Shown here one piece after another: positions 1,883-12,119 of a DNA stretch of 59,611 nucleotides. The stretch covers positions 1 to 59,611 of the forward strand of contig CASDXP010000012.1 of NCBI GenBank assembly GCA_949285455.1. The letters are read 5' to 3'. The number at the start of each line of letters is the position of its first letter. The stretch's first letter is position 1. The notes beneath the pieces were generated by a model. That model saw only the letters and a list, made by a program, of their open reading frames with translations, was not told where the DNA came from and ran no database searches. The translations under genes and the position numbers were made by a program. Source of the stretch: an uncultured bacterium (lineage in GTDB: Bacteria > Bacillota_I > Bacilli_A > RFN20 > CAG-826).

Positions 1883-3157
1883 ATGAAATTAGACAATTAT
1901 AAAACTAGAATTATTGATCGACAGATAAAATTATATTTAGAAATATTTGGCGCTATTTTGATTGAAGGTCCTAAATGGTGTGGGAAAACCTGGACGGCTA
2001 AAAATGTATGTAATAGTGAATTTTTATTAGCTAATCCGAGCGGAAATTTTAACAATAAACATATTGCGCTTTTAAACCCTGAATTGGCGCTTCTTGGTGA
2101 AAAGCCGAGGCTTATTGATGAATGGCAAGAAGTTCCTGCTTTATGGGATGCCGTTAGGGGAAAGGTCGATGAAAATTCTTCCAAAGGTCAATTTATTCTA
2201 ACTGGTTCAGCATCAATTAACAAAAACCAATATATTCATTCTGGTACAGGGCGCATTGCGAGATTAAAAATGCGGACGATGTCTTTATTTGAAAGTGGTC
2301 GCTCCGATGGCAAAATTTCACTCGAAGATATTTGTTCAGGAAAAACAAAAGATGTCTATACTGGTGAAGTTAGCTTAAAGACACTTATCGATTATATTTT
2401 AAGTGGTGGGTGGCCAGGAGCGTTAAAATTTAGCAGTAAGCAATCTATCATCATCGCAAAAGAATATATTAATTCTGTCATCAATGAAGATATTTACAAA
2501 CTAGATAATATAAAAAGAGATAAGCACAAAGTGACACTTCTTTTAACATCTCTTGCTAGAAATGAAAGCACGACTGTCACTAACGCTACGCTCAAACGCG
2601 ATATTAAAGAAAAAGATTTAGATGACATTGATGTAGATACAATTGTGAATTATTTAAATTTGTTAAACGATTTGCATCTTATAGAAAATATTCCTCCTTT
2701 TGCTACAAAAGTTAGATCATCATTAAGAGTAAAGCAAAGCGAAAAAAGACATTTTGTCGATCCTTCTTTGCCATGCGCTATTTTGAATATGACAGAAGAC
2801 AAATTGCTAAATAATTTAGACTACTTGGGTTTTTTATTCGAATCGATGGTAGAACGAGATTTATTGACATATGTCGCTTCTTTTAATGCAAAACTATTTC
2901 ATTACCAAGATTATAAAAATAATGAAATCGATGCAGTGATAGAATTAGAAGATGGCGAATGGTGTGCTGTTGAAATAAAACTCGGCGCTCATCAAATTGA
3001 TGAAGCAGCAAAAAATCTTATCAAAATAAACAATGAAATAAAAAAAGAAGGCGGTAAGCCCGCTAAAACAATGCTCGTTATTTGTGGTCTAACAAACGCC
3101 GCATATAAAAGGGAAGATGGCGTTTACGTCGTTCCCATCACTTCCTTAAAAGATTAA
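1883..3157 (+). CDS. AAA_14/DUF4143 ATPase, second copy
   Basis: This 424-residue ATPase is only distantly similar to its neighbour at 352. The Walker A loop is GPKWCGKTW at residues 29-37 and the Walker B motif is LIDEWQ near residue 76. The C-terminal domain has EID at 348-350 and EIK at 364-366, again a PD-(D/E)xK-like pattern. Upstream are three 23-bp tandem repeats (1734-1802) and an AT-rich probable promoter near 1830-1860. TATAGGGGAAA before the ATG gives a short ribosome binding site. A defence, selfish or DNA-processing role is possible, but no function can be read directly. Confidence 0.87.
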   Translation: MKLDNYKTRIIDRQIKLYLEIFGAILIEGPKWCGKTWTAKNVCNSEFLLANPSGNFNNKHIALLNPELALLGEKPRLIDEWQEVPALWDAVRGKVDENSSKGQFILTGSASINKNQYIHSGTGRIARLKMRTMSLFESGRSDGKISLEDICSGKTKDVYTGEVSLKTLIDYILSGGWPGALKFSSKQSIIIAKEYINSVINEDIYKLDNIKRDKHKVTLLLTSLARNESTTVTNATLKRDIKEKDLDDIDVDTIVNYLNLLNDLHLIENIPPFATKVRSSLRVKQSEKRHFVDPSLPCAILNMTEDKLLNNLDYLGFLFESMVERDLLTYVASFNAKLFHYQDYKNNEIDAVIELEDGEWCAVEIKLGAHQIDEAAKNLIKINNEIKKEGGKPAKTMLVICGLTNAAYKREDGVYVVPITSLKD

Positions 3158-3244: not shown

Positions 3245-3535
3245 ATGGAAGAAAAAGCATTAGAGTTCATTACTTATTATGAAGTACAATTAGAAATCGC
3301 CAAGCGATTCACTTCAATTAGAAAAAATAGAAAGATATCACAAGTTAGATTATCAGAATTATCTGGAGTAAGTTATGCTTCCATTAGAAGATTTGAAAAA
3401 ACCGGTGATATCTCTTTAGCGTCTTTAGTTAAACTCGCTATCGCGTTACGTTTATACGATGATTTAAATAATCTTTTTAAAGTTCGTAAAGAATATAAAT
3501 CGATTGAGGAAGTAATTAATGATCAAGAAGATTGA
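3245..3535 (+). CDS. hipB: HipB-like antitoxin, Xre-family repressor
   Basis: The 96-residue protein carries a helix-turn-helix of the Xre/Cro type at about residues 17-70, with QVRLSELSGVSYASIRRFEK as the recognition region. It overlaps the downstream hipA-like gene by 17 bases, the usual order of antitoxin before toxin. It is expected to neutralise the HipA-like kinase and repress the shared promoter through the palindromes at 3192-3242. The family link is by fold, gene order and operator architecture rather than by residue-level recognition of E. coli HipB. Confidence 0.85.
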   Translation: MEEKALEFITYYEVQLEIAKRFTSIRKNRKISQVRLSELSGVSYASIRRFEKTGDISLASLVKLAIALRLYDDLNNLFKVRKEYKSIEEVINDQED

Positions 3536-4607
3536 TGTTTTTGCTAATAAGATTAAAGTAGGCACTATCGCTTTAACTAAAGGAAAACAAGTTGCGTTTC
3601 AATATAGTGAAGAGTGGCTTAAAAAAGGTTTTTCAATTAATCCCATTAAACTTCCTTTAGCTAATCAAGTTTTCATTTCGACCTCCCCATATTTTAGAGG
3701 ACTATTTGGTGTATTCGCGGATTCTCTCCCTGATAGTTATGGCGAATTGTTATTAGATCGATATTTAAGAAAAAAAGGAATTGAAAGCAATTCCCTTTCA
3801 CCTTTAGATAGACTTGCTTACGTTGGTGCTTCTGGGATGGGAATGTTAGAGTATATTCCAGATTTTAGTGAAAAACAAAACGATGAAAAGATTGATTTCG
3901 ATTTAATTCAAAAAGAATGTAATGACCTTTTAGATGCAAAAGATGTTAAGCATATAGATACTTTATATTCTTTGGGTGGCTCTAGCGGTGGAGCTAGGCC
4001 TAAAGCACTTATCAAATATAAAGGTGAAGATTGGATAGTCAAATTCTCTTCAAAATTTGATCCTAAAAACATAGCTGAACTTGAATACATTTGTATGTCA
4101 CTAGCGAAAAAACTAGGAATTAATATTCCCCAGATCGAATTAATTACTTCCAAAGAAGGAAATAAATATTTTCTTATCAAAAGATTCGACCGCTTAAATA
4201 ATTGCAAGATTCATATGATAACCGCAGCAGCGTTATTAGAGTGTGACTTTATAGCCCCTTCTCTTGATTATAACGATTTAATCAAACTTACTAGAGTATT
4301 AACAAATAAAGATGAAGACGTTATTGAAATGTATAGAAGGATGGTTTTTAACGTCTTAATTGATAATCAAGATGATCATGCAAAAAACTTCTCATTTGTT
4401 TTTGATAATACAAAAAGAATGTATCGTTTAGCCCCAGCATACGATGTCACCCCGGGAAAAACCTATTTTGGTGAACACACAACCTCGATAAACGGTAAAG
4501 GAAAAGATGTTAGCGATGAAGATATGATTAAAGTTGCCATAAAAAATAAAATTGATGTTTCCATCGCTAAAGATATCATTGATAAATGCCATGCATTATT
4601 AAAATAA
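3519..4607 (+). CDS. hipA: HipA-like serine/threonine kinase toxin
   Basis: At 362 residues this is a single-gene HipA-type kinase, shorter than E. coli HipA (440). It has a Gly-rich loop GGSSGGARPK, the segment FLIKRFDR, the catalytic loop DNQDDHAKNF and the metal-binding APAYDVTP, so the kinase core looks complete. HipA toxins phosphorylate aminoacyl-tRNA synthetases (GltX in E. coli) and induce dormancy; the target here is unknown. Translation probably couples to hipB through the 17-base overlap. It lies among ATPase and Fic genes in a decaying accessory region but shows no damage itself. Confidence 0.9.
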   Translation: MIKKIDVFANKIKVGTIALTKGKQVAFQYSEEWLKKGFSINPIKLPLANQVFISTSPYFRGLFGVFADSLPDSYGELLLDRYLRKKGIESNSLSPLDRLAYVGASGMGMLEYIPDFSEKQNDEKIDFDLIQKECNDLLDAKDVKHIDTLYSLGGSSGGARPKALIKYKGEDWIVKFSSKFDPKNIAELEYICMSLAKKLGINIPQIELITSKEGNKYFLIKRFDRLNNCKIHMITAAALLECDFIAPSLDYNDLIKLTRVLTNKDEDVIEMYRRMVFNVLIDNQDDHAKNFSFVFDNTKRMYRLAPAYDVTPGKTYFGEHTTSINGKGKDVSDEDMIKVAIKNKIDVSIAKDIIDKCHALLK

Positions 4608-4936: not shown

Positions 4937-6277
4937 TTACATGAATGGCACCATGTAAATTGGAATGTATTGGACACCATTTTCCGCTCTATAATCTTTT
5001 GTATGGATAATATATTTTTCTTTGATTCGCCTACTAAACTTAGAGCAAAATACATCCATCGATTTATGCGATCTATAATTTCCGGATTTGACCTCAATTG
5101 GACAGATTTTATTACCGGATGTAATCAAGAAATCAATTTCATAGAGATGATTTGAAGTCTCTCCATTCATCGTATAGTAAAACAAATTATTTCCCTTTGC
5201 CACTAACATTTGTGCTACCACGTTTTCATAAATATAGCCTAAATTTTTATCGAGCTTATTAGATAAAAGTTTGTTATATATGATATTATCTGTAAAATCT
5301 TTATCTCTGAATGCTAGCGTGATAAAAAGACCAATATCTGAAATAAATAATTTATAACGACTTATATCTTTTTCTAATGACATGCCGACATTTGGATCGC
5401 TCGCGTGATAAGCAACGTTTATAGTGAAAGAACTCAGCATATCGGGAATTAATTCGTAAACCCTATTTGCTTTTAATCCCTTTTTAGCGGTGGACAAAAC
5501 ATATCGTGAGGAGTTTTTGCTTAGACTGGCTGGTATTGAATCGTAGATAGATTCAGCAAGGCCAGTACGGTCAATTTTACTAAAATCCTCCTCATATAAA
5601 TCGATGATGTCTCTTTTTACTTTATCGACGACTTGCAAATTATTACTTTCTAAAAATCTTTCTACAGCTTGAGGCATTCCACCAATTAACATGTATAAAC
5701 GGAAGCTACGAAGAAGATTTCTATGTAAAGCGTTGCCGGCGGGCAACTTGTTCTTTATAAGAGATTTAATTGTATCGGCAGTTATATCGTTTCCTATGGC
5801 CCATAAAAATTCTTCAAAATCCATAGGATGCATAGAAATTTTATGTTCTTCACTGGGAATTAATATATCTTTTGTATTCTTTCTAATTGATAGTAATGAA
5901 CCAGTTTCAATATATTTATATCTTCCATCTGCGACAAGATATTTAATCGCTTGTCTAGCTTTAGGAAGTAGTTGAACCTCATCAAAGATGATGACAGATT
6001 CTTTTTCATACAAACGCACACCGCTAAATTGTTGCAGCTTCAAAAAGAAAAAATCAAGGTCGTACATATCATCAAATAATTCGATGATGCTTTTACTCGC
6101 ATGAGCAAAATCAATTAAAATGTATGATTTAAATTCATTTTTCGCAAATTCTTTGGCGATTGTACTTTTTCCCACTCGCCTGGCACCTTTGATCAATAAT
6201 GCACATTTATCACTTTGTTCATTTTTCCACTTTAGCATTTCATCGTATATTTTTCTTTTGAATATTGTATTGGCCAT
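4937..6277 (-). CDS. AAA_14/DUF4143 ATPase, third copy
   Basis: The 446-residue protein starts at an ATG preceded on the minus strand by GAGGTGAC. It has a Walker A loop GARRVGKST at residues 31-39, Walker B VIIFDEVQ near residue 95, and a C-terminal YEID...IEVKSG, the PD-(D/E)xK-like pair seen in the other two copies. Its upstream side faces a tandem 33-bp repeat array (6304-6385) and a divergent broken Fic gene. The sequence is intact. It belongs to a different subfamily from the copies at 352 and 1883, so independent acquisition is more likely than local duplication. Confidence 0.88.
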   Translation of the reverse strand: MANTIFKRKIYDEMLKWKNEQSDKCALLIKGARRVGKSTIAKEFAKNEFKSYILIDFAHASKSIIELFDDMYDLDFFFLKLQQFSGVRLYEKESVIIFDEVQLLPKARQAIKYLVADGRYKYIETGSLLSIRKNTKDILIPSEEHKISMHPMDFEEFLWAIGNDITADTIKSLIKNKLPAGNALHRNLLRSFRLYMLIGGMPQAVERFLESNNLQVVDKVKRDIIDLYEEDFSKIDRTGLAESIYDSIPASLSKNSSRYVLSTAKKGLKANRVYELIPDMLSSFTINVAYHASDPNVGMSLEKDISRYKLFISDIGLFITLAFRDKDFTDNIIYNKLLSNKLDKNLGYIYENVVAQMLVAKGNNLFYYTMNGETSNHLYEIDFLITSGNKICPIEVKSGNYRSHKSMDVFCSKFSRRIKEKYIIHTKDYRAENGVQYIPIYMVPFM

Positions 6278-6392: not shown

Positions 6393-7001
6393 ATGAAATC
6401 ATCCCCATTTCCCCATATAATTGATATTTTTAATAATATTTGGAAGAGAAAAAAACAAGAAAAGAAATTTTCTTATAAAGGATTAACTATAGATGAAACT
6501 ATTGAACATCTAGCCATATTCATTTCCAATCTTTGGCAAATTCATGTTTTTGAAGAAGGAAACACTAGAACAATCGCGGTATTTTTTATTAAATATTTAA
6601 GAAGTTTAGGTTTCGATGTCACTAACGACGCCTTCGCTAAACATTCATGGTATTTTAAAAACTCTTTGGTGAGAGCTAATTACAACAATGTAAGAAAAGG
6701 AATCTTTGAAGATAGATCATATTTGATTAAATTTTTAAGAAACCTTCTTTTGGGCGACTCTAATGAATTAAGAAATAGATAACTTCATGTCTTAGAAATA
6801 AAAATAGATAAAGATAACGCTACAAGAGAATCAAAAATTCTTAGTGCAATTAAAGAAAACCCACATGTAACCTCTGAGCAACTTTCACATAAAATAGGTG
6901 TATCGATAAGAACAATTAAATCCGCGTTAAAAGGTCTAGAAACTTCTAATAAAATTAAAAGGATGAATGGTAAACGTTACGGTCATTGGAAAATTATATA
7001 A
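6393..7001 (+). pseudogene. broken Fic family gene with C-terminal winged helix
   Basis: The frame encodes a Fic core with the active-site motif HVFEEGNTRT (family consensus HPFxxGNGRT) and a following helical segment ending NELRNR. A TAA at 6780-6782 stops it. The same frame then continues without interruption to 6999-7001 as LHVLEIKIDKDN... followed by a winged-helix segment (SEQLSHKIGVSIRTIKSAL). Relatives read NELKNRYxHI across this point, so the TAA is probably a nonsense mutation of a Tyr codon. The N-terminal half of the Fic domain is missing: the open frame begins inside the upstream CCCCATT repeats. AMPylation by this product is unlikely. Confidence 0.75.
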
Positions 7002-7165: not shown

Positions 7166-7196
7166 TTGACTACGGGGGGGGGGTATTAGTTATTAT
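7166..7196 (+). promoter_or_regulatory. promoter with a G10 tract in the spacer (likely phase-variable)
   Basis: A -35 box TTGACT (7166-7171) and a -10 box TATTAT (7191-7196) are separated by 19 bp. Positions 7174-7183 of that spacer are ten consecutive G. Losing two G would give the optimal 17-bp spacing. In known cases such as Neisseria porA, slipped-strand changes in a G tract at this place switch or tune expression. The 5' leader would be about 35 bases and ends with AAAGGAGG before the ATG at 7239. Confidence 0.7.
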
Positions 7197-7238
7197 TCAA
7201 TATCATAAAATTACTTAACAGAAAAGGAGGAATTGTTA

Positions 7239-7868
7239 ATGTTAAGGAAATCAACATCCATTTTAGCACCTCTTGCGGGTCTAATCGCAATTGTAGGTGC
7301 TGGTTTCTCAGTTTGGTACTTTGATGTCGCGGACATTAATAAAGATGGACCAACTATCTCCACCGAAGTTACTGATAAAGTCACCTATGGTGAAATTACT
7401 GTCACGACCACTGACACTCTTACCTTAGTGTTAGATCAAGGCGGTATCGCCAATGCTAGTGATGTCACCAAAGGCATTTCTGTCGTCGGAGCGGATGATT
7501 CCCCAGTCGCAAGTATCGTTGCACAATATGATGCTGGAACGCATTATGAAACGATCGTCGATGGTGGCTTAAATCCAACTATTACGACCACTATTACCAT
7601 CAGCGAAGGCTTACGTGATTATGTGACCGTATCCGATGGCGATTTTCTTGCCGGAACAGCTGGTGTCTTTACAAGAACTTCAACCTTTGCCGCTCAAGTG
7701 ACCGATTTAACTATCGATTGTTCGACCACGGATGAAACGAACGCTTTATTTAGCTATGTTACTGGTATGAAGCCAACAACTTCTGAAGCTTATGATACGA
7801 TGGTAGATACAGTCACAGCTGGTACAGTTACTATCGCTTATAGCGTTTCTTTTGGCACCATTCTTTAA
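7239..7868 (+). CDS. TasA/camelysin-like exported surface protein
   Basis: I place the start at the ATG at 7239, eight bases after AAAGGAGG; an in-frame TTG at 7233 is too close to that site. The 209-residue product has a hydrophobic export segment (about residues 8-24) ending VGAGFSVWYF, which resembles signals handled by SipW-type peptidases. The mature part is Thr/Val/Asp-rich and probably beta-sandwich. The stretch VTDKVTYGEITVTTTDTLTL has a counterpart in the 8830 gene product, so the two are paralogues. TasA-type proteins form extracellular fibres; that role here is inference from the signal type and the adjacent dedicated peptidase. It is first in a four-gene operon. Confidence 0.75.
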   Translation: MLRKSTSILAPLAGLIAIVGAGFSVWYFDVADINKDGPTISTEVTDKVTYGEITVTTTDTLTLVLDQGGIANASDVTKGISVVGADDSPVASIVAQYDAGTHYETIVDGGLNPTITTTITISEGLRDYVTVSDGDFLAGTAGVFTRTSTFAAQVTDLTIDCSTTDETNALFSYVTGMKPTTSEAYDTMVDTVTAGTVTIAYSVSFGTIL

Positions 7869-7891: not shown

Positions 7892-8833
7892 ATGCCTAGT
7901 AACGAAGTAGCAAATATCGCCATAGGTGTTGCTATTGTCGTCGTCATATGCATTGCTATTACATTTACGATTTTATATTTTGCATACGCAACTTATAAAA
8001 GAGCCCACATTAACAATGGGCACGAAGATGAAAAGATAAAAGCAGCGATGACGGGGGAAGAATATGTTCCCCCGAAGTCGCAAAAGTGGGCGACGAGATG
8101 GCACAACTTTAAAAAGAAGTTTAAATCTTCTAAAACTAGTAAGAAAGTAAAAGAATCTGAGAAACCTATTTCTTACCTAGTGGAACTTAAAAAAGAAGAG
8201 AAGAAAGCTTCTATTTTTAGAGTGCTCCATATCGTAGCTTTTTCTTTAGTGTCCCTCATCTTAGTTATCGTCTTAATCTTTTCTAGTTTATATCGTGCGG
8301 GAGGGCAAGTGCTCTACATTAACGGGTCCGCATTATTAACCATTCAAACTGGTTCGATGGAAGAAATTCACCCTAATAACACTTACATCGAAGAAAATAA
8401 TCTCACGAATCAAATTGATCGTTTCGCTTTAATAGGTGTGGACAAAGTAAGAGAAGAAAGTGATTTAAAACTTTACGATGTCGCGGCGTTTAGTCATGAA
8501 AACGTCATTTACGTTCACCGTATCGTCGATATTAAAGTCGATGAAGAAGGCGTTACTTCTTATACCTTTAGAGGAGATGCGAATGCTTCTTCATTAAGTT
8601 TTGAATTAGATGTGAAGTTCGAACAAATTCTTGGTGTTTATAATGGCTTCCATAACGTGTTCTTAGGAGCGATGCTCACTTATTTACAATCTAATATTGG
8701 TATCATTTCTTTATGCGCTGGCATCTTATTTTTAATTAATTTAGAAGTACAAGAAGATTTAATTAACGCGACTTATAAGAAAAGGAAGAAATATATCGCT
8801 AGAAATTTAGATTTAGAAAGGAAAAGACAATGA
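7892..8833 (+). CDS. sipW: SipW-type (S26B) signal peptidase I
   Basis: The 313-residue protein has the ER/SipW-type Ser-His dyad: Ser155 in QTGSMEE and His209 in IYVHRIV, plus the GDAN box at 228-231. The usual bacterial Lys is replaced by His. Membrane segments are predicted at about residues 7-30, 109-131 and 255-275. The first of these and the following Lys-rich, probably cytoplasmic linker (about 30-108) make it longer than B. subtilis SipW (190 residues). It lies between two TasA-like genes, overlaps the next by four bases (ATGA), and should process their signal peptides. No Shine-Dalgarno sequence precedes its ATG. Confidence 0.88.
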   Translation: MPSNEVANIAIGVAIVVVICIAITFTILYFAYATYKRAHINNGHEDEKIKAAMTGEEYVPPKSQKWATRWHNFKKKFKSSKTSKKVKESEKPISYLVELKKEEKKASIFRVLHIVAFSLVSLILVIVLIFSSLYRAGGQVLYINGSALLTIQTGSMEEIHPNNTYIEENNLTNQIDRFALIGVDKVREESDLKLYDVAAFSHENVIYVHRIVDIKVDEEGVTSYTFRGDANASSLSFELDVKFEQILGVYNGFHNVFLGAMLTYLQSNIGIISLCAGILFLINLEVQEDLINATYKKRKKYIARNLDLERKRQ

Positions 8834-9480
8834 GAAAATTATTGTTTCCTTTCATCCTTTCTTTATGCGGTGTAACTTCGATCGTAGGAAGTGGTTTTTC
8901 AGGCTGGTTTTTTGAAGACGAATTAATGAACGCAAATTTATCGAAAACGCAAAATGTTTTTGTAAATGTCGAAGATAAAGCTAGTTTCGGCACATTCCAA
9001 ATAACCGCGCCTGATTATCTAATTTTAGAAGAAGGGGAAAGTATGTACGATTTAAAAGATGGCATTAGTTTTTATCGTACGTGGCCGAATGAAAATGTAG
9101 CGAATTATTTTGAACTAGAAAGAAATGATGAATTAATTATTACGTTTAATGAATCAACGAACGTCGATTTTAATTACGTTTTGAAATTAAAAATCGAAAT
9201 ATTTGGTTATAAAATTGGTGAACGAAGTATCTTAGTATTCGATGATTATTATCTTGGTTTGAAAGACGAACAAAATTATATTAATTTTGAACAATTTAAT
9301 GGTCGTTATGATAGTTCAACTAAAACGCTAAGTTTAAATATGAATGATTACATTCAATATGCTTCTTTAGATATTAAACCTATCACCTTAGAACAATTCA
9401 CCGCTTTAAAAAATGCTTTAGAAGCGAGCGAAGGACAAAATTATGTCGTCATAACCGCAAGTGCGGAAAGGGTTAATTGA
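8830..9480 (+). CDS. exported protein, paralogue of the 7239 product
   Basis: The 216-residue protein starts MRKLLFPFILSLCGV and ends its hydrophobic segment with VGSGFSGWFFEDE, the same type of signal as the 7239 protein. After it, VEDKASFGTFQITAPDYLIL aligns with VTDKVTYGEITVTTTDTLTL of that protein, so both share a fold. The gene is translationally coupled to sipW by an ATGA overlap. It may be a minor fibre subunit or anchor, as TapA is to TasA in Bacillus; this is by analogy of gene order only. Confidence 0.7.
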   Translation: MRKLLFPFILSLCGVTSIVGSGFSGWFFEDELMNANLSKTQNVFVNVEDKASFGTFQITAPDYLILEEGESMYDLKDGISFYRTWPNENVANYFELERNDELIITFNESTNVDFNYVLKLKIEIFGYKIGERSILVFDDYYLGLKDEQNYINFEQFNGRYDSSTKTLSLNMNDYIQYASLDIKPITLEQFTALKNALEASEGQNYVVITASAERVN

Positions 9481-9482
9481 AG

Positions 9483-11705
9483 ATGAAGCTAAGGTTATCA
9501 AAAATAATCATCGCTATTTTATCTTTATTCGTTCTTGTTCCCACGAGCGCATACGCTATTTTTTATTTTGAAAATTATAGTGAAGAACATCATGTCGATA
9601 CTGGCGTAAGAGTAGATGATATTAGAGAAAATTATACTTTCGCTAGCGAAAGAGAAGAACTCCCAACATATGATGTTTATTTCTTTCCAAGCGTCTTATA
9701 TTTAACAGATGATTATGGCTCTAATCCGGAAGAGGATGGCTACTTATTATTCGATCCTGAAAATCCCCATCAACTCGAAGTAGTGGGTGGTTCTAATACT
9801 GTCAATAATTACATCGATAAGATAAGTCAAAATAATCACTATATGCCTTCGGATGAGGCGGATCATAATTACGATCCAAATGTTATTTACAATCAAACTC
9901 TTAATGCTCTAGGAAGAGATTATGGAAGCCCGAATGACGGGGATGTATTTACTAGTGATGCAGGGGGAAGACTTCCTCGTAATTTATCACGTTACGACCG
10001 CTTTGGTTATTGGCCTTCATTAACGTTAGAAAAAGGAAGATATTTACCCATCAAGTTTGAAAACGTGCAGCAACTTTCTTCTTATTTATTTAATTATTTC
10101 ATCGAAAAACCATTTTCTGATATGAACGATCAAGAAAATTGGTACAACTATTATTTTGCCGCTTGGACGTATCGAAAAGTCGCAAGTGGGGAAAATATGG
10201 GTCAAGACCCAATTAACATTGATCATGATTCAAATGATCCTATCGAAATTCAATATTTTAGAAATAGAGACTTGCATTTAACCTTCGATGTGGCGAACAA
10301 CTTAGCGATGTATGCGGATGAAAATAATGTCGTAAGACTTTATCCTTATTTCTCTAATGGCGTTTCTTATCCTTATCGCGACGGCAACAATAACTTCCAT
10401 TATAGCGGGGATGGGTTTAGAGATTCAGTTAAGATTGTTGGAAAAACTTACGAAGATCAAGTCACTAATCACGACTGGGCTTTCGTCTTCGACCCTAATT
10501 CTTATGGAAGCCCAGGCACGACGAGTATTTTTGATTCTCCCGGTGCCCAGAATAACCGTGTAGCGATTTTACAAAACGTTTATCTAGATACGTCATATAA
10601 TTTTCAAATTCAATTTAGAACTTACATGCCTAATAATGGTGACGATTATTATCGTTCAGGCTGGATCAACTCATATACTTTTCATAATAATAATCAATTG
10701 ACTAATGTCATTAATACTTACGGACCTGGAATTTATAATTTATATCTTTTCGTCGGCAATTGTGGCGATAATTATGAAAGCGACTATTCATATTATGAAG
10801 ACGATTTAAATGATTATAATATTAATTCCACATACATTAGCAATACTTTCCTTGCTGGAAGGAATTTAATTTCGCTCGGTAGGGCTTGGGGTGATGATCC
10901 TGATGAAAATTCCTACGTCTATTGGGTAAGACCTACACAATTATTCATCGAAAAATCAGTGAACATTAAAATGATTGAAGGTATCGATCCAAATGGCGAT
11001 GTTCCCACTCAAACATTCGACGCTTATCCTTTAGCCTACAATTTCGTAAGAATTTCCGATAGTGGATTAGAATCAAATAATCGTTACGTCTATTTAATTA
11101 GAGATGTCAATTTAGGTGATAATCAGGGGCAAAGTTTTCAAATAAGACTTTCACAATATTATACGAACATTACTATTAATAACCCCTCTAGTAGCGTAAC
11201 TTATAATAATGTAAGTTTTGAGCCATACGGTGAATACTTTACTTCTTCTCTCATGGGAGGAGAGCTAATCTTTAATGTTATCGAACATTATCATATTTAT
11301 GATTTCATCTTAAAACAAACAGACAATACAACTTATGAACTTTACGCCTCGAGACATACGAACTTCTTCGTCAAACTTTTTAGTCAAGACGTCGATCACG
11401 ATAGCGACAAAATGGCGATTCATGAAGGAGTGGATCACTTGTGGATGAATACTTATGCTTCAAATCAAATAATTGATTTAGATGATACTTCCGATACGAA
11501 CATTAGCCTAAGACAAGCGATCATCGATGGCGTTAATAAAAAAGGCGGAAGTAGGCAAGATTACGTCGTTTTAGATCATGTGACAAGAAGCGTCGTCGCA
11601 CATTTCGATACGAACGGTAATTTGGTTTTTAATACGAGAAGCGTCGTCAAAAATTACATTTTCTTCATTTGCCACATCGACAATTTAGAAACGTATCTTC
11701 AATGA
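9483..11705 (+). CDS. large exported protein of unknown family
   Basis: An ATG at 9483 lies about ten bases after GGAAAGGG; an in-frame TTG at 9477 overlaps the previous stop and is the alternative. The roughly 740-residue product has an N-terminal signal (about residues 8-28) ending AYAIFYFENYSEE, again of the SipW-dependent style. The rest is rich in Asn, Asp, Tyr and Ser, with no repeats, sortase motif or membrane anchor that I can see. I do not recognise a domain. Position at the end of the signal-peptidase operon suggests a secreted matrix or adhesin component. A terminator follows at 11740-11780. Confidence 0.7.
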   Translation: MKLRLSKIIIAILSLFVLVPTSAYAIFYFENYSEEHHVDTGVRVDDIRENYTFASEREELPTYDVYFFPSVLYLTDDYGSNPEEDGYLLFDPENPHQLEVVGGSNTVNNYIDKISQNNHYMPSDEADHNYDPNVIYNQTLNALGRDYGSPNDGDVFTSDAGGRLPRNLSRYDRFGYWPSLTLEKGRYLPIKFENVQQLSSYLFNYFIEKPFSDMNDQENWYNYYFAAWTYRKVASGENMGQDPINIDHDSNDPIEIQYFRNRDLHLTFDVANNLAMYADENNVVRLYPYFSNGVSYPYRDGNNNFHYSGDGFRDSVKIVGKTYEDQVTNHDWAFVFDPNSYGSPGTTSIFDSPGAQNNRVAILQNVYLDTSYNFQIQFRTYMPNNGDDYYRSGWINSYTFHNNNQLTNVINTYGPGIYNLYLFVGNCGDNYESDYSYYEDDLNDYNINSTYISNTFLAGRNLISLGRAWGDDPDENSYVYWVRPTQLFIEKSVNIKMIEGIDPNGDVPTQTFDAYPLAYNFVRISDSGLESNNRYVYLIRDVNLGDNQGQSFQIRLSQYYTNITINNPSSSVTYNNVSFEPYGEYFTSSLMGGELIFNVIEHYHIYDFILKQTDNTTYELYASRHTNFFVKLFSQDVDHDSDKMAIHEGVDHLWMNTYASNQIIDLDDTSDTNISLRQAIIDGVNKKGGSRQDYVVLDHVTRSVVAHFDTNGNLVFNTRSVVKNYIFFICHIDNLETYLQ

Positions 11706-11790: not shown

Positions 11791-12119
11791 ATGATTAAAA
11801 GAGATTTTTGTTTAAATCAATTAATTGCTAAAAGACATTCTTCCAAAATTAAAATCATTATAGGATTAAGAAGAAGTGGAAAATCTTATCTTTTAACGAA
11901 CATTTATAAGCAACATTTGCTTTCTCTTGGGGTAGAAGAAAAGCAAATTATTATCATTTCACTAGATGACGAAGAAAATGATGCTTTAATTAAAGTTCCT
12001 AATTCATTTAAGAAAATTATGGTCCTTAATAAACCCTTCCTTTCTTATCATGATGAAAAAGTGTACTTTTAATTTCATTAGAGGAATTTATATTAAATAA
12101 AGATAGCTTAGATTTATAA
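11791..12119 (+). pseudogene. AAA_14/DUF4143 ATPase gene with internal deletion and frameshift
   Basis: The first about 70 residues carry a normal AAA start with Walker A GLRRSGKSY at about residues 26-34, after a good AGGAGG site. The frame then jumps directly to a C-terminal-type segment (NSFKKIMVLNKPFLSY), missing about 300 residues including Walker B and the nuclease-like motif. A TAA follows at 12070-12072. In a shifted frame the expected ending ISLEEFILNKDSLDL is still readable to a stop at 12117-12119. So the gene has lost its middle and then shifted near a run of four T. Confidence 0.75.

Follow-up and report, generated by a model that had tools for sequence, protein, structure and literature searches.

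Is a run of ten G residues inside the promoter of a SipW-type operon, in the genome of an uncultured bacterium, a phase-variable switch? A first-pass annotation had placed this G10 tract within a 19-bp TTGACT/TATTAT spacer directly 5' of four genes, and we find that this description holds letter for letter within the window, by which we mean the whole 59,611-nucleotide stretch of DNA analyzed. The promoter elements around the tract, together with the operon that they precede, are as follows.

7166 to 7171, plus strand: -35 hexamer TTGACT, 5 of 6 consensus positions; TTGACA or TTGACG occupies this place in the orthologous operons L290 and L291
7172 to 7190, plus strand: promoter spacer ACGGGGGGGGGGTATTAGT, 19 nt, with the G tract inside, as read from the sequence
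7174 to 7183, plus strand: G10 tract, the proposed slippage site, as read from the sequence; G8 and G10 in the orthologs L290 and L291
7191 to 7196, plus strand: -10 hexamer TATTAT, 5 of 6 consensus positions; TATTAT or TATAAT lies 6-7 nt past the tract in the orthologs
7224 to 7230, plus strand: Shine-Dalgarno element AAGGAGG, as read from the sequence
7239 to 7868, plus strand: gene 1, first gene of the operon, a 209-aa exported protein with a GAGFSVWYF segment
7892 to 8833, plus strand: gene 2, a SipW-like signal peptidase of 313 aa (NCBIfam SigPepSipWBacil, E 6e-11; TGSM and VHR motifs in the translation)
8830 to 9480, plus strand: gene 3, a 216-aa protein with a GSGFSGWFF segment and weak similarity to gene 1
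9477 to 11705, plus strand: gene 4, a 742-aa protein with a signal-like N-terminal segment and no family match

The tract begins 2 nt after the -35 hexamer and ends 7 nt before the -10 hexamer, and gene 1 opens with the ATG at 7239. Within the 260 nt 5' of that start codon, TTGACT/TATTAT is the top match to TTGACA/TATAAT (10/12, the next two scoring 8), although a standard scan of 16-18 bp misses the promoter because its spacer is 19 bp. A homopolymer of about eight or more residues between -35 and -10, which is one hallmark of porA-type promoters, is therefore present. The tract also stands out from its surroundings. No other G run of seven or more occurs on either strand of the 59.6-kb window, the G10 site alone yielding four overlapping G7 matches; shuffled windows average 0.20 such matches and no shuffle reached four. 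A first-order Markov model predicts roughly 0.001 G/C10 runs per window and, across the 1.1-Mb genome, 0.11 G/C runs of nine or more, of which five are found.

The four genes are tightly packed, with a 23-nt gap after gene 1 and 4-nt overlaps thereafter. A SipW-like signal peptidase gene adjoins genes with GxGFSxW signal segments, as is expected of a SipW-type operon. Gene 2 scores 42 bits against the SigPepSipWBacil model, whose curated cut-off is 190, and we therefore describe it as a SipW-like enzyme that falls outside the Bacillus SipW equivalog. Gene 1 has no credible match in Pfam or NCBIfam, TasA/CalY included, and gene 4 matches no family in either collection. The predicted structure of gene 1 is a beta-sandwich (pLDDT 80.6) with only middling structural matches, among which TasA is not listed, leaving no confident fold relative. 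The suggestion in the first-pass annotation that the operon builds a surface layer or fibre is plausible but not shown, and a surface role for its products remains an inference. Just 5' of the operon, at 6393-7000, a partial Fic-domain ORF that matches only the end of the Pfam model is followed by a helix-turn-helix-like stretch, apparently a broken Fic/HTH gene. The wider flanks carry AAA ATPase-like ORFs (for example 352-1584, 1883-3157 and 4937-6277) and a HipA-like gene pair at 3245-4607, all judged by eye from their translations, and a short AAA_14 fragment lies 3' of the operon at 11791-12072.

SipW is absent from the other three genomes of the genus, so the operon cannot be compared within the genus. 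The two best SipW matches come from other genera of the family, and each of their operons opens with a homolog of gene 1 (47% and 34% identity). Their promoters read TTGACA-GA-G8-CTCTTA-TATTAT, with a 16-bp spacer (L290), and TTGACG-C-G10-TAATATT-TATAAT, with an 18-bp spacer (L291). The three closest operons thus share one layout, with spacers of 19, 16 and 18 bp. We extended this comparison to 60 SipW loci of the order, taking up to about 5.5 kb upstream of each; these represent about a dozen genera in four families, and related genomes among them are not independent. A sense-strand tract of G8 or longer lies upstream of SipW in 23 loci and an antisense tract in one, and neither strand carries such a tract downstream of the SipW start in any of the 60. 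Most tracts sit 5' of a first gene with a GxGFSxW segment. A clear TTGAC precedes about half of the tracts by no more than a dozen bases; in some loci the tract is 130-290 nt away from the gene and no obvious promoter surrounds it, and one tract (L337) is apparently in coding sequence. The six tract promoters with a clear hexamer pair have spacers of 19 (the window), 16, 18, 19, 18 and 18 bp, none of them 17.

The layout extends well beyond SipW operons. TTGACA followed 4-11 nt later by G8 or longer occurs 34 times in 196 genomes of the family and about 74 times in 155 genomes of the order, against a single occurrence of the reversed pattern in each set, and the full TTGACA-N-G≥8-TATWAT arrangement has 35 occurrences across 392 genomes of the class with no hit for the reversed control. 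In family and order alike, the layout with a tract in the spacer is tens of times as frequent as its reversed control. Among GTDB species representatives we identify at least 118 loci, mostly in Bacillota (Clostridia and Bacilli), with some in Mycoplasmatota, Spirochaetota, Saccharibacteria, Fusobacteriota and others. Supporting the switch reading, the genes downstream of poly-G promoters mostly encode exported or membrane proteins: by a hydropathy rule, a signal or membrane segment opens 76 of 104 next-downstream genes (73%), compared with 168 of the 891 other ORFs at the same loci (19%; Fisher p about 1e-28). Viral contigs gave only 2 hits, and the pattern is thus not mainly a phage feature. 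L343 (G113:C17) and L231 (Streptobacillus notomytis) belong to different phyla and share many identical 40-mers (63 sampled hits); a conserved RNA gene, transfer or contamination are all possible and are not distinguished. L038, in another family genome (G007:C1:32291), has a G17 tract in a coding or antisense context, not in a promoter.

The first-pass annotation had proposed looking at tract lengths in relatives. Lengths do differ, as in the G8 and G10 of the orthologous SipW promoters. Across 11 pairs of homologous tracts whose flanks are identical at 24/30 and 22/30 positions or better, the number of G residues is unequal in 7; the second hallmark of the porA type, length that varies between homologous loci with conserved flanks, is thereby met, the closest SipW promoters having G8, G10 and G10. 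Two promoters of one contig carry G9 and G10 (L169), orthologs in the window's genome (G000) and G014 carry G10 and G11 (L032/L030), and an orthologous promoter within the genus has G9 in G000 and G10 in G002. A conserved leader cassette has G10 in G000 and G13 in G036, with flanks identical at 67/70 and 53/60 positions. This cassette, of about 130 nt, runs GCTAGTTAATAATACCTTGCCTCTCTC ... G-tract ... TAATATT ... GGATCTAGGTGAAAGAAACTAGGTC, with a terminator-like hairpin before the Shine-Dalgarno element, and precedes unrelated genes in three families. Its loci are L357 (G000:C3:137675), L356 and L366 (G002), L350 (G026) and L352 (G036), and their tracts are G10, G10, an interrupted G5, G11 and G13.

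MutS1 and MutL were not detected in the window's genome (97% complete) or in its three genus mates (G001-G003), in searches where controls and many relatives score well and both genes turn up in several other genera of the family; slippage rates should consequently be higher in these genomes. We considered whether G tracts are mere debris of lost mismatch repair and reject this as their main cause, because the MutS1/MutL-positive genomes G008, G031 and G034 hold 3, 6 and 9 TTGACA-G8 sites whereas G000-G003, without detected repair genes, hold 0 or 1 each. Elsewhere in the window's genome, L031 (G000:C2:6235, minus strand) has a G9 tract 92 nt into an ORF for an 869-aa exported protein. Gain or loss of a single G would truncate the frame after 34-37 residues, so the genome appears to have a second switch, one that acts on translation.

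We propose that the G10 tract makes the promoter spacer phase-variable, a reading that we consider likely (about 0.8). In this model, slipped-strand mispairing at replication would insert or delete G residues, and the distance that separates TTGACT from TATTAT would change with them. As assembled, at 19 bp, the promoter is expected to be weak; loss of one G would give intermediate expression, and loss of two would give the optimal 17 bp and high expression. Cells would then differ heritably and reversibly in their amount of SipW-processed exported proteins, whether as a random, graded dimmer or as an on/off switch. The data show the promoter anatomy, a layout that orthologous operons keep while their tracts have other lengths, the length differences between homologous promoters, the strand-specific enrichment and the failure to detect MutS1 and MutL; length variation within a population and the expression levels are inferred. 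The porA-like phase variation put forward in the first-pass annotation was a guess from one sequence and is now supported by the orthologous SipW tracts, the enrichment over the reversed control, the length differences between homologs and the lack of detected mismatch-repair genes, with variation within populations still inferred. Its further claim that two G fewer would turn the operon on is plausible but not shown.

Spacer lengths across sites bear on the resting state of such promoters. Among 124 sites, the spacers are 14 bp at 3, 15 at 11, 16 at 19, 17 at 6, 18 at 30, 19 at 38, 20 at 11, 21 at 5 and 23 at 1, so that 19 bp, the spacing in the window, is the most frequent, whereas ordinary TTGACA/TATWAT promoters at the same loci peak at 17 bp (18/47). 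A second sample has 4 of 35 poly-G sites at 17 bp. Pooled, 17-bp spacers occur at 10 of 159 poly-G sites versus 18 of 47 ordinary promoters (Fisher p 4e-7), and permuting tract lengths among the 124 sites predicts 18 where 6 are seen (p 1.5e-4). We regard this deficit as no more than suggestive, since requiring G≥8 in the search cuts off some combinations, clade structure is present, the optimum for G-rich spacers may differ and the second sample has its 4 of 35. In a bolder reading, poly-G spacers would be widespread among uncultured gut Bacilli, Clostridia and others as a switch for exported proteins that has mostly gone undescribed, with the window operon at 19 bp as one example. Resting spacers of 15-16 or 18-20 bp, off the 17-bp optimum, would then give populations in which most cells express little and a minority, one or two slips away, expresses strongly. 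We would narrowly bet against this extension on present evidence.

Several observations weigh against the switch reading. Both hexamers of the window are one base off consensus, its -10 sits 7 nt past the tract, unlike that of most relatives, 37 of the 60 SipW loci have no such tract, and roughly half of the tracts near SipW operons lack a clear TTGAC. The tract could instead be a fixed element with a structural or regulatory role, for example an activator binding site or a stiff spacer, whose length is of little importance and which does not switch in practice. The similar placement of the tract in orthologous operons is what a binding site would produce; however, homologs with conserved flanks have tracts of unequal length, and tracts are found at very different genes and in very different taxa, and we regard this alternative as unlikely.

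Less likely still is a tract that is itself transcribed from a true promoter further upstream and acts in the 5' leader through reiterative transcription or effects on translation. A weak match further upstream (TTAATA-17-TACACT, 8/12) and the SipW loci whose tracts lie 130-290 nt from the gene, outside any obvious promoter, would fit such an arrangement, but the orthologs keep TTGAC directly before the tract and a -10-like hexamer after it, and TTGACA-N-G≥8-TATWAT is enriched in general. That the run arose by chance or as a sequencing or assembly artefact can be all but dismissed. Reads are known to show poly-G as an artefact, and short-read sequencing has difficulty with G-tracts (PMC9187656), yet only about 0.001 G10 runs are expected in the window, strand-specific placement recurs at related operons (23 versus 1) and the controls with the pattern reversed are close to zero. 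The count of G residues may nonetheless be off by one or so. A phase-variable spacer remains our preferred reading.

The mechanism that we propose has precedents. Phase variation through a promoter spacer was reported for porA of Neisseria meningitidis (van der Ende 1995, title cited in PMC5084427). The porA promoter has a homopolymeric G tract between -35 and -10, and the length of the tract sets that of the spacer. The window resembles porA in having a G tract that sets spacer length and, by inference, a surface protein downstream; it differs in belonging to another phylum, in controlling a Gram-positive-type SipW operon of four genes and in the position of the tract, 2 nt from -35 and 7 nt from -10. 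In Bifidobacterium breve, a gut commensal, a sortase-pilus switch works by G-tract slippage and yields mixed G11/G12 populations within one culture (PMC9187656). Slippage in a G tract, as proposed for the window, controls a surface structure there as well, but the B. breve tracts studied lie in coding sequence and act by frameshift, and tracts in promoter spacers receive only passing mention in that paper. Bacillus subtilis tapA-sipW-tasA encodes a SipW-like signal peptidase with exported proteins that bear SipW-type signals, and is controlled by dedicated repressors. The window likewise pairs a SipW-like signal peptidase with exported proteins bearing a SipW-type signal segment, but gene 1 lacks a Pfam TasA-family match or a confident fold match, and control of the operon appears, by inference, to rest on tract length and not on such repressors. 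In the open-licence literature searched we found no description of a poly-G promoter at SipW operons or in this lineage; what is already known is the porA-type mechanism, and the apparent novelty lies in the lineage, in SipW as the target and in how widely the architecture occurs. Reading the poly-G signature directly from genomes can yield candidate phase-variable surface genes for many uncultured species, and the switch claim can be tested at once on the tract lengths in metagenome reads that already exist. If the proposal is correct, uncultured bacteria with small genomes randomize a SipW-type exported-protein operon much as Neisseria randomizes porA.
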